The position numbers and the translations under genes were made by a program. Under the pieces are notes generated by a model. It did not search any database. It was not told the origin of the DNA and was given only the letters and a program-made list of their open reading frames with translations. This document shows, one piece after another, positions 405 to 6,415 of a stretch of 54,235 nt of DNA (its first letter is position 1; each line of letters starts with the position of its first letter). The stretch covers positions 26,080-80,314 of the forward strand of contig JAAUTZ010000002.1 of assembly GCA_012031225.1 (NCBI GenBank), read 5' to 3'. Source of the DNA: Chloroflexaceae bacterium (GTDB lineage Bacteria > Chloroflexota > Chloroflexia > Chloroflexales > Chloroflexaceae).

Positions 405-1817
405 CTAGCCCACTGAGCCTTCCATCTCCATCTGGATCAGACGGTTTAGCTCCAGTGCGTACTCCATTGGTAGCTCGCGGGTGAATGGCTCCATAAAGCC
501 TAGCACGATCATCGAGAGGGCATCGGCTTCGGGAATGCCGCGACTCGTTAGGTAGAAGAGTTGCTCTTCGCCAATGCGTCCGACAGTGGCTTCGTGGGCC
601 AGCGTGGTCTGCTCTTCTTCGATCTCGATGTACGGGATCGTGTCGCTAGCAGAATGTTCGTCGAGGATCAGCGCATCGCAGTTGACGTTGATCTTCGAGT
701 TGATTGCGCCCGGGGCCACCTTCGCCAAGCCGCGATAGGTCGTCTTGCCGCCATCCTTGCTCACCGACTTGTTGGTGATGCGGCTGGTAGTATCCGGCGC
801 AATGTGTACCATTTTCGCGCCGGCATCTTGGTGCTGCCCGCGCCCCGCATACGCCACGCTCAATACCTCGCCGCGTGCGCCACGCCCCATCAGGTAGACC
901 GAGGGGTACTTCATCGTCAGGCGGCTGCCGATGTTGCCGTCCACCCATTCCATCTGGGCATCTTCGTAGGCAATCGCCCGCTTGGTGACAAGGTTGAAGA
1001 TGTTGTTGGCCCAGTTCTGGATCGTGGTGTAGCGGAACTTGCCGCCCTTCTTGACGACGATCTCAACCACCGCCGAGTGCAGCGAATTGGTGCTGTAGAC
1101 AGGCGCGGTGCAACCTTCGATGTAGTGCGCTTCGGCCCCTTCCTCAATGATGATCAGGGTGCGCTCGAACTGGCCCATGTTCTCGGCATTGATGCGGAAG
1201 TAGGCTTGCAGGGGGATGTCCACCTTCACGCCGGCGGGCACATACACAAACGATCCGCCCGACCAGACGGCGGTGTTCAGGGCCGCGTACTTGTTATCAG
1301 CGGCGGGAATGATCGTGCCGAAATACTGCTTGAACAGTTCGGGTTGCTCGTGCAAGGCCGTATCGGTATCGAGGAAGATCACGCCCAGCTTCTGCCACTC
1401 CTCACGCAGCGAGTGATAAACCACTTCACTTTCGTATTGTGCGCCCACGCCGGCAAGGAACTTGCGCTCGGCTTCGGGAATGCCAAGCCGCTCGAAGGTG
1501 TTCTTGATCTCTTGTGGCACAGCATCCCAATCGTGTTGGGGCTTTTCGCCCGCCCGCACGAAGTAGTGAATCTGGTCGTAGTCTAGATTAGCCAGATCAG
1601 CATTGGCCCACATACCGGTGAGCGGCACGGGCTTTTGCAAGAAGATACGCAGTGCCTTGAGCCGCCGTTGCAGCATCCATTCCGGCTCATTCTTCATGGC
1701 CGAAAGCTCACGCACAACTTCTTCGGTCAGCCCCTTCGGAGCCTTGTATATATAGTTCTCTTCGTCGCGGAAGCCATACTTGGAATAGTCGAAATCAAGG
1801 TTTAGCTCTGCTACCAT
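405..1817 (-). CDS. sufB: Fe-S cluster assembly scaffold SufB
   Basis: SufB is the core of the SufBCD scaffold on which Fe-S clusters are assembled with sulfur from SufS/SufU. The 470-residue product has the usual SufB length. It carries the C-terminal beta-helix signature, with [11 protein letters not shown] (conserved cysteine), [20 protein letters not shown] and [14 protein letters not shown]. The start at 1817 follows a GAGGAGG ribosome site. Unlike many suf operons, sufB is last, after sufU. The 103-bp gap before it contains its own promoter and a copy of the box found before sufR, so it can probably be transcribed separately from sufCDSU. Identification is very secure. Confidence 0.97.
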
Positions 1818-1860: not shown

Positions 1861-1890
1861 AGTATACCAAAGGTGCGCGTATTTTGTCAA
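1861..1890 (-). promoter_or_regulatory. Promoter of sufB
   Basis: On the minus strand a perfect -35 TTGACA (1885-1890) and -10 TATACT (1861-1866) are separated by 18 bp. The -10 lies about 43 bp upstream of the sufB ATG. The promoter is inside the suf gene cluster, between sufU and sufB. Confidence 0.75.
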
Positions 1891-1899
1891 TTTTGACAG
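1882..1899 (-). promoter_or_regulatory. Candidate SufR operator at sufB
   Basis: Plus-strand TTTTGTCAATT, three variable bases, then ACAG covers the -35 element. The same arrangement occurs at 6355-6372 before sufR. Here it also contains the inverted repeat TGTCAA-N2-TTGACA (1885-1898). Binding by SufR is inferred from the sharing and the position. Confidence 0.6.
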
Positions 1900-1920
1900 G
1901 TTTTTCTGTCGAAATTCAGG

Positions 1921-2307
1921 CTAGCCCGTTGCGTCGGGGATGTCGTACAGCCCGGCTTTCAGGGCCTTGAGCGCAAGCAGGGCACACTTCAGGCGCACCG
2001 GATTGCGCTGTAACGGGATACCGATGAGTTCGAGCAGATCATCTTTGTCGAACTGCTGCACCCACTGCAAGGGTTGCCCTAGCACCACTTCGGTCAGCAT
2101 TGATGCTGAGGCCATGCTGATCGCGCAGCCCTTGCCCGAAAACTTCACCTGCTGCACCACATCATCGGCGACAATCAGGTCTATCCGCACTTTGTCGCCG
2201 CACAGGGGATTGACCGCCTCGAAGCTATGCGTGGCGTGTTCGAGTGTGCCAAAGTTGCTTGGATAGCGGCTATGCTCCAGTATCTCTTCGCTGTACAGTT
2301 CGTTCAT
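1921..2307 (-). CDS. sufU: SufU-type sulfur-transfer protein
   Basis: This 128-residue NifU/IscU-fold protein accepts persulfide sulfur from SufS in SUF systems of the Gram-positive type. The three conserved cysteines are visible in NPLCGDKVRI, GKGCAIS and RLKCALLALKAL. The last motif, together with the roughly 18-residue insertion before it typical of SufU rather than IscU, supports the assignment. An AGGGG ribosome site lies 6 nt before ATG 2307. The gene follows sufS by 19 bp. It probably binds zinc and activates SufS rather than being the main scaffold, as known for Bacillus SufU. Confidence 0.93.
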   Translation of the reverse strand: MNELYSEEILEHSRYPSNFGTLEHATHSFEAVNPLCGDKVRIDLIVADDVVQQVKFSGKGCAISMASASMLTEVVLGQPLQWVQQFDKDDLLELIGIPLQRNPVRLKCALLALKALKAGLYDIPDATG

Positions 2308-2326: not shown

Positions 2327-3583
2327 CTAGCCCAGCACGCGCTGAACATGGGCTAAGCCGGCCACCAGCCGATCTAGCTCATCCGCCGTGTTATACAGAT
2401 ACATACTCGCCCGCACGGTTGCGGGCACATCCAGCAAGCGGTGCAGGGGCTGCGTGCAGTGATGCCCAGCCCGTACTGCAATGCCCTGCTGATCGAGCAC
2501 GGCGGCAATATCGTGCGGGTGGATATTGCCGAGCGTAAAGGCAAGCGCAGCCCCGCGTTGTTCTGCGGCACGAGGTCCATACAGGGTCAGATTGGGCACG
2601 GTGGCAAGCTGCTGCAAGGCATGCTGCACCAGCTCTTGCTCGTGGTGGTAGATTGCATCCATGCCGATGCCGTTCAGGAAATCCACCGCCGCCCCCAATG
2701 CAATCGCCTCACCAATCGCGGGCGTGCCTGCCTCAAAGCGTTGGGGCACATCGGCGTAGGTGCTGCGCTGCTCATCTACGTAGCTGATCATGGAGCCGCC
2801 ACCGAGAAACGGGTGCATCGTGCTGAGGATGTCATACCGCCCCCACAGCACGCCCACGCCGGTAGGCCCACACATTTTGTGCCCACTGAAGGCGAGGAAA
2901 TCGGCTCCTAGTTCAGCCACATTGACCGGCATGTGCGGCACGCTTTGCGCTCCATCCACCACCACCAGCGCACCGACAGCGTGGGCCCGAGCGGCAATCG
3001 TGGCCACGGGATTGATCGTGCCCAACACATTCGACTGATGCGTGAAGGCAACGATGCGGGTGCGCTCGGTGAGGAGCTGATCGAGACTGTCGAGGTCAAG
3101 CCGTCCGTCGGCATCTAGCGTGACATAATCTAGCACTGCGCCGCGCCGCTCGGCGAGCAATTGCCACGCCACGATGTTTGAATGATGCTCCATCAGCGTG
3201 AGCAGAATCCGATCTCCTGCCTGCACATGGGCATCGCCCCACGCATATGCGACAAGATTGATGGCCTCGGTTGTATTGCGCGTGAAGATGATCTCCTCCG
3301 GGCGGCGTGCGCCAATGAAGTGGGCCACCTTCTCGCGGGCTTGCTCATAGGCGTAGGTGGCTTCCTCGCTCAGCCAGTAAACCCCGCGATGCACATTGGC
3401 ATGATAACGGGACATGTAGTCAGCGAGGGCGTGGATCACATGGTGCGGACGCTGCGATGATGCCGCCGAGTCGAGGAAGATGAGCGGCTGCCCATGCATC
3501 TGCTGCTGCAAGATCGGGAAGGCTTCCCGCACGGCAGCCATATCGCTTAGGCGTGTGCTGATCGGGGTGTCTCCACTGCTCAT
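2327..3583 (-). CDS. sufS: Cysteine desulfurase SufS
   Basis: SufS is a PLP-dependent desulfurase that takes sulfur from L-cysteine for Fe-S assembly. The PLP lysine sits in FSGHKMCGPTG, the cofactor-contacting segment is VDGAQSVPHM, and the catalytic cysteine is in RAGHHCTQPL. The ATG at 3583 (MSSGDTPISTRL) is chosen because it lies 13 bp after the sufD stop. A longer in-frame form starting at 3646 would overlap sufD. The resulting 418 residues match group II desulfurases. Confidence 0.95.
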   Translation of the reverse strand: MSSGDTPISTRLSDMAAVREAFPILQQQMHGQPLIFLDSAASSQRPHHVIHALADYMSRYHANVHRGVYWLSEEATYAYEQAREKVAHFIGARRPEEIIFTRNTTEAINLVAYAWGDAHVQAGDRILLTLMEHHSNIVAWQLLAERRGAVLDYVTLDADGRLDLDSLDQLLTERTRIVAFTHQSNVLGTINPVATIAARAHAVGALVVVDGAQSVPHMPVNVAELGADFLAFSGHKMCGPTGVGVLWGRYDILSTMHPFLGGGSMISYVDEQRSTYADVPQRFEAGTPAIGEAIALGAAVDFLNGIGMDAIYHHEQELVQHALQQLATVPNLTLYGPRAAEQRGAALAFTLGNIHPHDIAAVLDQQGIAVRAGHHCTQPLHRLLDVPATVRASMYLYNTADELDRLVAGLAHVQRVLG

Positions 3584-3596
3584 CGGCTTGCTCTTT

Positions 3597-4832
3597 CTAG
3601 ATGCGCCCTTCGATATGCGCGGCAACCTGCTCGCGGGTGATTTCATGCGGGATCGCGCTCAGGGCAGTTTCAAAGAAGCCCATCACGATCAGCCGCTTGG
3701 CATCTGCTGGATTGATCCCGCGTGCCTGCATATAGAAGATCTGCTCCTCATCCACCTGCCCGCTGGTGCTGGCGTGGCCCGCTTTGGCTACGTCGTTGGT
3801 GTCAATCATCAAGCCGGGGATTGAGTCGCTGCGCGAATTTGGGGTCAGGTGGATAGCATGCTCCTCAAGGCGCGTGCTAGTCGCATGCGAGTCGTGTTCG
3901 ATCTTGATCATGCCATCGAAGACGCTGTAGCCTTGATCCGCGACAACAGTCTTAAAATCAAGGTGGCTCTCAGTGGCGGTGCCGATATGGCGCAGCCACG
4001 GCACAATCACAAGGTTCTGCTGCTCGGTGGCAAAGGTTGCGCCGTGCCACTCAATGCGGCTGCCATCGCCCTGCATGCGGGCTTCGGCTTCGATGTGCTG
4101 CACCTTGCCGCCCAAGCCAAACGAGACCCATTCGCCGCTTGCATCCCGATCCAGCGTGATGACTTGCCCGCCAATGTGGTAGGTGGTGCGGTTCTGCTGC
4201 TGGATGCTGGCATAGCGGATGGCTGCCCCCGCCCCGATGAACAACTCGGTGGTGGCTCCGGTCAGGGTGGCTGTAGCACTCTCGACGGAGATATGCTCCT
4301 CGATCAGGCTGACCCGCGCATTGGCTTCGACAATCACCAGTGTATACGGGAAGTGCGCTTGCTCGCCTGCCGGTAGGGTATAGCGAATATGCAACGGGGC
4401 TTCGAGTTCCACATTGCGGGGCACATACAGAAACGTGCCGTTCTGCCAGAGTGCCGCCCGCAGTGCGCTGTAGCGATTGGCGAGTGGAGGCACACCCTGC
4501 CCCATCTTGCTGCCGATCAGGTCGGCGTGGGTGGTGAGGGCATCCCGCAGCGGCACAAAGATTGCACCCTGTTCCGCCGCTTTATCTGCGCCGAGCAGTT
4601 CGGGGGCGTGCGGGTGGGCGGCAAGCTGCAACGTCTCAAGGTGCAGCTCGTCGAGCCGCGTGCGGCGCCATTTGGGGGCTTCCATTTGCTGGAAGGCACT
4701 CCATGCCGCGCCACGCATTTCTGTCAGCCACGCGGGTTCGTTGGCAGCCTGCGAGTGTTCGAGAACCTGCGCGACGCTCAGCGTGCCCAACGTGCCGAGT
4801 GGGGAGGTGCTGCCGTTAGTTAAGACTGCCAA
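3597..4832 (-). CDS. sufD: Fe-S assembly protein SufD
   Basis: SufD is the SufB paralogue in the SufBC2D complex. The C-terminal signature is [15 protein letters not shown] followed by [16 protein letters not shown], with the conserved histidine in AGHAS. The best start is a TTG at 4832 (or the adjacent TTG at 4835). It lies six bases after a perfect AGGAGG inside the end of sufC, giving about 411 residues. An ATG exists at 4871, but it lacks a comparable ribosome site and lies deeper in sufC. The reading frame overlaps sufC by about 17 bp, consistent with translational coupling. Confidence 0.93.
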
Positions 4833-5598
4833 CAACTTCCTCCTTGATCCAATCGTAGCCGCGCTCCTCAAGCTCTAGGGCCAGCTCCGGCCCACCCGAA
4901 CGCACGATGCGCCCCTCCATCATCACCGACACAAACTGCGGCTTGATGTAGTTGAGCAAGCGTTGGTAGTGGGTAATCACGAGCACGCCCATGTCTGGGT
5001 TGAGCAAGCGGTTGACACCTTCCGATACCACCCGCAGCGCATCAATATCCAAGCCGGAGTCGGTCTCATCCATCACCGCCATCGAGGGCTGCAACATGCT
5101 CATCTGAAGAATTTCAAGCCGTTTCTTCTCACCCCCACTGAAGCCTTCGTTGAGGTAGCGGCGGGCAAAGCCATCATCCATACTCAGGTCTTGCATCGCG
5201 GCTTTGATTTGCTTGCGGAACTGGGCCATCGGGATTGCCGTCTCTTTTGGGTCTACATTGGGTTGGGCGCGATGCGCGTTAAGTGCTGCCCGCAGGAAGT
5301 TAGCGACGGTGACACCGGGGACAGCGACGGGGTATTGGAAGGCGAGGAAGATGCCGAGCTTGCTGCGCTCAGCTGGATCCAATTCAAGAATGTTTTCGCC
5401 TTTGTAGATCACTTCACCGCCGGTTACGACATAGTTGGGGTGGCCCGCAATCGCGTAAGCCAGTGTGCTTTTGCCACTGCCATTTGGCCCCATCACGGCA
5501 TGCACCGTGCCGGGTTGGATCGTCAAATTGACCCCTTTGAGAATCTCTTGTCCTTTGACTTCAACGCGCAAATCTTTGATGTGCAATTCGTTTGGCAT
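4816..5598 (-). CDS. sufC: SUF system ATPase SufC
   Basis: SufC is an ABC-type ATPase that powers conformational change in SufBCD. The 260 residues include Walker [10 protein letters not shown], the ABC signature FSGGEKKR and Walker [13 protein letters not shown], all intact. The start at 5598 ([14 protein letters not shown]) follows GAGGAAGG. Upstream in-frame codons to 5796 overlap sufR and are not SufC-like. sufC is the first structural gene after sufR, 68 bp downstream, on the same transcript. Confidence 0.97.
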
Positions 5599-5666
5599 AA
5601 CCTTCCTCGTAGTAGATATTCCGTGTCCAGTGGGGTTTACGCACGGCATAGCGCAAACCTTCGATA

Positions 5667-6308
5667 TTATCCATCTGCTTTTGGTTCGGCTCCATGCACG
5701 CGAAACCAACAGTGATGATGCCCTTCGCGGATCGAGTGTTCCAGCACCACCTGTGCCCCTAGCACCTGTTCCAGCATCCGCTGTTCCATCGTACACACGC
5801 TAGCATGTTCCTGTGCGACTTCGTGATAGGGGCACGCGAGGATTTTGAAGCCAGCGTGGTCAGTGCGGATTTCAGCAGGCACGCCGCGTGCTTCCAGCGT
5901 GCTGCGAAGTTCATCTAGCCGGACCTCCAAATCTTCCGCATTGACGTGTTCGCCATAATCGTGCTTGAGCCGTTCACCTACCCGTTGCAGCAAGCGGGCC
6001 ACCTGTTCGGTGCCATCGGCTGAAAGTTCGTCAAGGATCAGGTTGATCAGCAGATCATAGTGGCGCGGGAAGTAATCTTCGGCTTTGTCCGTCAAGGTGT
6101 AGACAAGGCGCGGTCGGCCGGGCCCGTGCCGCAGGGTACTTGTCTGCACCAGCCCATTGGTATGTAGGTGCGCGAGATGCTCTCGCACAGCAGTGGTGCT
6201 GACTCCAAGTACCTGTTCAAGTTCCTTGATTGTCGCCTGACCGCTGCGGCGCAAGTGTTGCAGGATGATGCCTGCGGGACTGGATGATCGAAATCCAAGA
6301 ACTTCCAT
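5667..6308 (-). CDS. sufR: SufR-type Fe-S-sensing repressor of the suf operon
   Basis: This is a DeoR/ArsR-like winged-helix regulator of 213 residues. The DNA-binding domain covers residues 10-70 ([19 protein letters not shown], then the wing [13 protein letters not shown]). Three cysteines, C159, C172 and C200, follow a C-X12-C-X27-C pattern that matches the [4Fe-4S] site of characterised SufR proteins. In those, holo-SufR represses suf and loss of the cluster relieves repression. It is first in the operon sufR-C-D-S-U-B, so autoregulation is expected. A perfect sigma-70 type promoter with an inverted repeat over the -35 lies just upstream, and the same box precedes sufB. Confidence 0.92.
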
Positions 6309-6334: not shown

Positions 6335-6363
6335 AGTATACCGAGATGTTCCTGTTTTGTCAA
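6335..6363 (-). promoter_or_regulatory. Promoter of the suf operon
   Basis: Minus strand -35 TTGACA (6358-6363), 17-bp spacer, -10 TATACT (6335-6340), 26 bp before the sufR ATG. It is nearly consensus and therefore likely to need repression. Confidence 0.85.
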
Positions 6364-6372
6364 TTAAAACAG
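6352..6372 (-). promoter_or_regulatory. Candidate SufR operator
   Basis: Perfect inverted repeat CTGTTTT-N7-AAAACAG centred on the -35 hexamer. Its right part shares TTTTGTCAATT-N3-ACAG with the site before sufB (1882-1899). Binding by SufR is inferred. Confidence 0.65.
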
Positions 6373-6415
6373 TGAAAACCGCGAAAACTGGAGGGAGCCG
6401 CTAGAAGCGTGCGGG

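Follow-up and report, generated by a model that had tools for sequence, protein, structure and literature searches.

The sufR promoters of the Chloroflexales carry a conserved, symmetric element of 28 bp that ends in the first bases of the -35 box. We propose with good confidence that this element is the SufR operator of the order, at which cluster-loaded SufR would repress suf and, in the clade of the window (the whole stretch of 54,235 nucleotides that was analysed), also an internal sufB promoter and mrp. What is observed directly is the symmetric element with its conservation, where it sits in the promoter, its reappearance at Fe-S genes of this genome, the operon and the invariance of the cysteines.

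In the window, the suf genes lie on the minus strand in the order sufR-C-D-S-U-B, and a strong promoter, TTGACA-17-TATACT, sits in the 107-bp gap between a ClpB-like gene upstream and the start of sufR at 6308. An earlier note on this DNA had reported this near-consensus promoter and had placed a SufR with the motif C-X12-C-X27-C at the head of the operon. Both descriptions are correct: TTGACA at 6363-6358 and TATACT at 6340-6335 are spaced by 17 bp on the minus strand, the motif is present and the gene is SufR-like. The genes and promoter boxes are:
5667-6308, minus strand: sufR, 213 aa, with a helix-turn-helix and C-X12-C-X27-C
4816-5796, minus strand: sufC open reading frame (ABC_tran); the true start is internal and the first part of the frame overlaps sufR
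3597-4871, minus strand: sufD (SUFBD_core)
2327-3646, minus strand: sufS, cysteine desulfurase (Aminotran_5)
1921-2307, minus strand: sufU (NifU_N)
405-1817, minus strand: sufB (SUFBD_core)
6358-6363, minus strand: -35 box TTGACA of the sufR promoter, read from the sequence; TTGAC is conserved at 99-100% by genus weight
6335-6340, minus strand: -10 box TATACT of the sufR promoter, from the sequence and column conservation; the conserved form is TGGTATACT-like

In SufR (P0001), HTH_DeoR and HTH_5 score above cut-off and mark an N-terminal helix-turn-helix DNA-binding domain, and the cluster cysteines C159, C172 and C200, which lie in the C-terminal half, are invariant in 17 diverse orthologues. 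The cysteine spacing C-X12-C-X27-C equals that of C203, C216 and C244 in M. tuberculosis Rv1460, each of which is required for function (PMC6034842). TIGR02702 (SufR_cyano) matches with 73.1 bits (E 2.5e-20) and does not reach the curated cut-off of 178.8; thus, SufR is not filed in the cyanobacterial equivalog subfamily. The AlphaFold model (pLDDT 72, pTM 0.47) is confident only in the helix-turn-helix domain and matches only generic winged-helix proteins, and no solved SufR structure was found by sequence search. Linkage to suf is found throughout: sufR is the first gene of sufRCDSUB, and in the loci of the order sufC is the next gene after sufR on every contig that extends far enough. SufR-like proteins occur in 76 of the 82 genomes of the order, with weaker second hits that represent a paralogue, here named SufR2; when the presence and absence of the box was compared with that of sufR, most genomes without sufR also proved to be without sufC. 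At the far end of the operon, SufB in G020:C280, G036, G037:C60, G041:C1 and G049:C207 gives a two-piece match, split near residue 230 within one long open frame, which is the pattern that would be expected of an intein in SufB.

Across the order, 74 sufR promoters that represent 30 genera were sampled by genus and lined up on the -35 box. The order consensus reads AATAAAaACAG-N6-CTGTTTTTATT with the spacer tttttn, and its last two bases are the first two of the -35 box. The two palindromes at the sufR promoter of the window are:
6362-6389, minus strand: proposed SufR operator, AGTTTTCGCGG-TTTTCA-CTGTTTTAATT, from the aligned promoters of 30 genera; arms 6379-6389 and 6362-6372, spacer 6373-6378
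6352-6372, no strand assigned: the palindrome CTGTTTT-N7-AAAACAG of the earlier note; present, but only its arm 6366-6372 belongs to the conserved operator

Only one strong symmetry peak, that of the 11-6-11 geometry, appears in the promoter; it reaches 0.66, and no other centre exceeds 0.44. Pairing in this geometry is 0.678 versus 0.614 with permuted partners, a value reached by 0.002 of permutations, and the excess persists when similar boxes are thinned to 43, 24 and 11 (z 4.1, 2.6 and 2.2); because the permutation leaves some shared ancestry in these statistics, the p-values serve as guides. The strongest pair is pair 9, at 0.88 versus 0.50 expected among the 24 thinned boxes, and position 9 is also the best covarying pair (C-G/A-T). 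Moreover, two variants, AATTTCGAAAG-TTTTTG-CTTTCGAAATT (L026) and TTTCGACAG-TCTTTG-CTGTCGAAA (L283), are changed on both sides with the symmetry kept. The boxes of genus g34 have diverged, and the copy at sufR in the window keeps 6 of 11 pairs with a weak upstream arm. Upstream of sufC in G061 (L283, about 2575-2610; a MAG 84% complete) there is a perfect SufR-type box with no adjacent sufR.

A conserved stretch at this place could also be a UP element or a curved T-tract that strengthens the promoter. It is A/T-rich and located where contacts of the alpha-subunit are expected, and the copy at sufR in the window can be read as a 9-bp tandem, GTTTTCGCG-GTTTTCACT-GTTTTAATT. We regard this explanation as very unlikely given that position 9, a C-G/A-T pair, covaries best, that L026, L283 and the copy before sufB described below retain inverted symmetry without the T-tract pattern, and that the box at mrp in the genome G019 overlaps the -10 region and the start site, where a UP element would not act. 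The stretch may nevertheless serve in both ways, as operator and as promoter-strengthening element.

The earlier note had taken CTGTTTT-N7-AAAACAG as the operator. This repeat is present at 6352-6372 as described (sequence CTGTTTTGTCAATTAAAACAG, overlying the TTGACA of the -35 box), and 6352-6372 is the sole exact match of the CTGTTTTGTCAATTAAAACAG pattern in the 4.2 Mb genome. With three mismatches allowed, the genome holds 71 matches versus 66 for the reversed control pattern; perfect inverted repeats of this kind (arms of 7 bp, spacers of 3-12 bp) number 76 in the window, and one arises in 4.6% of shuffled versions of the 107-bp gap. Judged by symmetry alone, the repeat is therefore modest. 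The expectation that it would be conserved upstream of sufR orthologues failed, with a pairing of 0.423 versus 0.420 in permuted controls across the same 74 promoters and 30 genera, and it was rejected as the conserved operator on this ground. Its second arm, between the -35 and -10 boxes, is not kept among the aligned sufR promoters, and a genome of the same genus already has AAAACTG there. Since the CTGTTTT arm, on the minus strand, pairs with the upstream arm across N6, the conserved operator abuts the -35 box and is not centred on it. Thus, there is a putative SufR-type operator here, conserved across the Chloroflexales, with other boundaries (6362-6389) than those first drawn; likewise, a lineage-specific motif unlike the published CAAC-N6-GTTG box exists, but CTGTTTT-N7-AAAACAG itself is not the conserved element.

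A narrower version of the original idea holds that in this genus the upstream arm has decayed and a new symmetric site over the -35 box has become the operator. The repeat is perfect (7/7) in the window, whereas the conserved palindrome keeps 6/11, and the genome of the same genus retains 6 of the 7 pairs. This version is nonetheless highly improbable: the symmetry of the repeat is not conserved across genera, shuffled gaps carry its like at the frequency given above, and the operator before sufB has the shifted geometry with 10/11 pairs, while the sequence behind its -35 box, AAATACGC, fails to complete the repeat.

The proposed SufR operator has a second copy in the window, in the gap between sufU and sufB:
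1889-1916, minus strand: second operator, at the internal promoter before sufB, AATTTCGACAG-AAAAAC-CTGTCAAAATT, 10/11 pairs, read from the sequence; arms 1906-1916 and 1889-1899
1885-1890, minus strand: -35 box TTGACA of the internal sufB promoter, from the sequence; its first two bases are the operator's last two
1861-1866, minus strand: -10 box TATACT of the internal sufB promoter, from the sequence; 18 bp from the -35 box

Relative to the -35 box this copy, AATTTCGACAG-N6-CTGTCAAAATT(GACA), is placed as the copy at sufR and is better paired, and sufB starts at 1817, downstream of the internal promoter. A box of this type is found in the same place in the genomes G022 and G019 and was not found in the other genera compared; thus, the internal sufB promoter is assigned to the genus of the window and its sister genus.

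Across the genome of 4.2 Mb, exact matches of the pattern CRG-N6-CTGTNNWAWTTGACA are confined to the promoters of sufR and sufB, and WWNNACAG-N6-CTGTNNWW has two exact matches, one in front of sufB and one 118 bp ahead of mrp, the gene of an Fe-S carrier ATPase; the reversed control pattern gives 5 hits. It is very unlikely that both matches landed at Fe-S genes by chance. The same WWNNACAG-N6-CTGTNNWW pattern has 7 hits in G019, which include those at sufR, sufB and mrp. For G022 and G019, the remaining exact hits fall either within coding sequence or at genes that are unrelated, and were treated as chance. As the boxes of relatives had guided the design of both patterns and the mrp site was first seen in G019, the scan is a confirmation in a second genome and not a blind test.

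When mrp promoters were scanned spacer by spacer, exact ACAG-N6-CTGT appeared only at spacer 6 and in the window's genome, G022 and G019. In other genera, from two families, the mrp promoters aligned on the -10 box show a different N6 palindrome, TTTCGATAG-N6-CTTTCGAAA, located 14 or 17 bp upstream, with a peak of 0.40 at N6 versus roughly 0.26. This palindrome fits the SufR2 paralogue better: genus g27, in which SufR2 is present and no SufR was found, has a perfect mrp palindrome, TTTCGCAAG-GGAACG-CTTGCGAAA; the promoter of SufR2 itself in G057 has a related half-site, TTTCGCAAG-CACGTT-CTTGACAAT; and in Chloroflexus-type genomes SufR2 and mrp are divergently oriented. On these grounds SufR2 probably controls mrp outside the clade of the window, while within this clade mrp has the letters of the suf box, which suggests that control has passed to SufR. 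The presence of SufR2 in most genomes, its orientation next to mrp and the perfect palindrome in g27 also raise the question whether SufR2 is the main binder of all these sites, including those at suf. We hold this to be very unlikely: throughout the order, the box at suf goes together with sufR, and its ACAG letters are not those of the mrp palindrome seen in other genera. Some SufR2-like genes (upstream regions L092, L214 and L223) have an AAGTCAA-N8-TTGACTT palindrome at their promoter.

Known SufR acts as a cluster-loaded dimer that represses suf at CAAC-N6-GTTG (PMC8593673; PMC13421787; PMC11995493). As in the cyanobacterial system (Synechocystis sll0088), a SufR homologue is combined here with two half-sites separated by N6 at a suf promoter and with proposed control of suf. 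Unlike the cyanobacterial CAAC/GTTG, however, the half-sites are ACAG/CTGT inside 11-bp A/T-rich arms; sufR is the first gene of the operon, whereas it is divergent in cyanobacteria; and the protein has three cysteines in C-X12-C-X27-C, in contrast to C-X12-C-X13-C-X14-C in cyanobacterial SufR, which has four (PMC8593673). The position of sufR at the head of the suf operon is shared with actinobacteria (M. tuberculosis Rv1460; sufR of S. avermitilis and C. glutamicum), and S. avermitilis and C. glutamicum likewise have an N6 inverted repeat; N6 is also the spacing of the CAAC-N6-GTTG box known from cyanobacteria and Streptomyces. The actinobacterial CAAC or GAAC-N6-GTTG overlaps the -10 box and the start site, while the suf site here lies upstream, touches the -35 box and has other letters. 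The Chloroflexales site thus has the N6 inverted repeat at the suf promoter and lacks the letters CAAC/GTTG. Searches of the literature turned up no SufR motif for Chloroflexus or from RegPrecise. In total, the lineage-specific operator is probably a version of the known switch, novel in its letters, arm length and promoter position.

Palindromes at related genes were also seen elsewhere. The -10 region of the sufR promoters of Herpetosiphonaceae (L062-L069) is overlaid by a Fur-box-like TGATTATCGATTTATAATCATTCTCA, which suggests added iron control. Close to a gene for a FecCD-type iron transporter, Herpetosiphon genomes share a palindrome that resembles the SufR-type boxes, AATAAAGACAG-ATTAAA-TTGTCTTTATT (L241, about 1500-1526). 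In other classes of the Chloroflexota (L184, L186, L191 and L202), a SufR-like gene is divergent from a SufC homologue, and the upstream regions share a palindrome, TGTCAATATT...AATATTGACA, that covers both -35 boxes.

From geometry, placement and homology we infer SufR as the binder, binding as repression and the cluster as the signal. Because the N6 spacing beside strong promoters matches known SufR sites, the same holo-repressor logic is suggested. An Fe-S-loaded SufR dimer would bind the 28-bp operator with one winged helix per half-site, and bound holo-SufR would cover the edge of the -35 box together with the A/T-rich stretch upstream, block upstream contacts of the polymerase and thereby shut down an otherwise strong promoter. 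Iron scarcity or loss of the cluster would release SufR, and sufRCDSUB would then be expressed until the cluster supply has recovered; in the clade of the window, the second operator would govern the internal sufB promoter and a third would act at the mrp promoter.

At a constant N6, the letters run from ACAG/CTGT at suf in the Chloroflexales through TTTCGATAG/CTTTCGAAA at mrp (SufR2) and ACTA/TAGT in a relative of another class to CAAC/GTTG in cyanobacteria and actinobacteria. It is conceivable, if somewhat doubtful, that SufR-type regulators keep the N6 dimer geometry while the letters of the half-sites drift, and that the mrp promoter in the clade of the window swapped a SufR2-type for a SufR-type box and so joined the suf regulon along with the new internal sufB promoter. 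The case shows how a motif drawn from a single genome can be put right by comparing relatives. The three operator copies in one genome offer concrete sites for testing the control of Fe-S cluster assembly in this phototroph lineage, and they suggest that the Fe-S carrier gene mrp is co-regulated.
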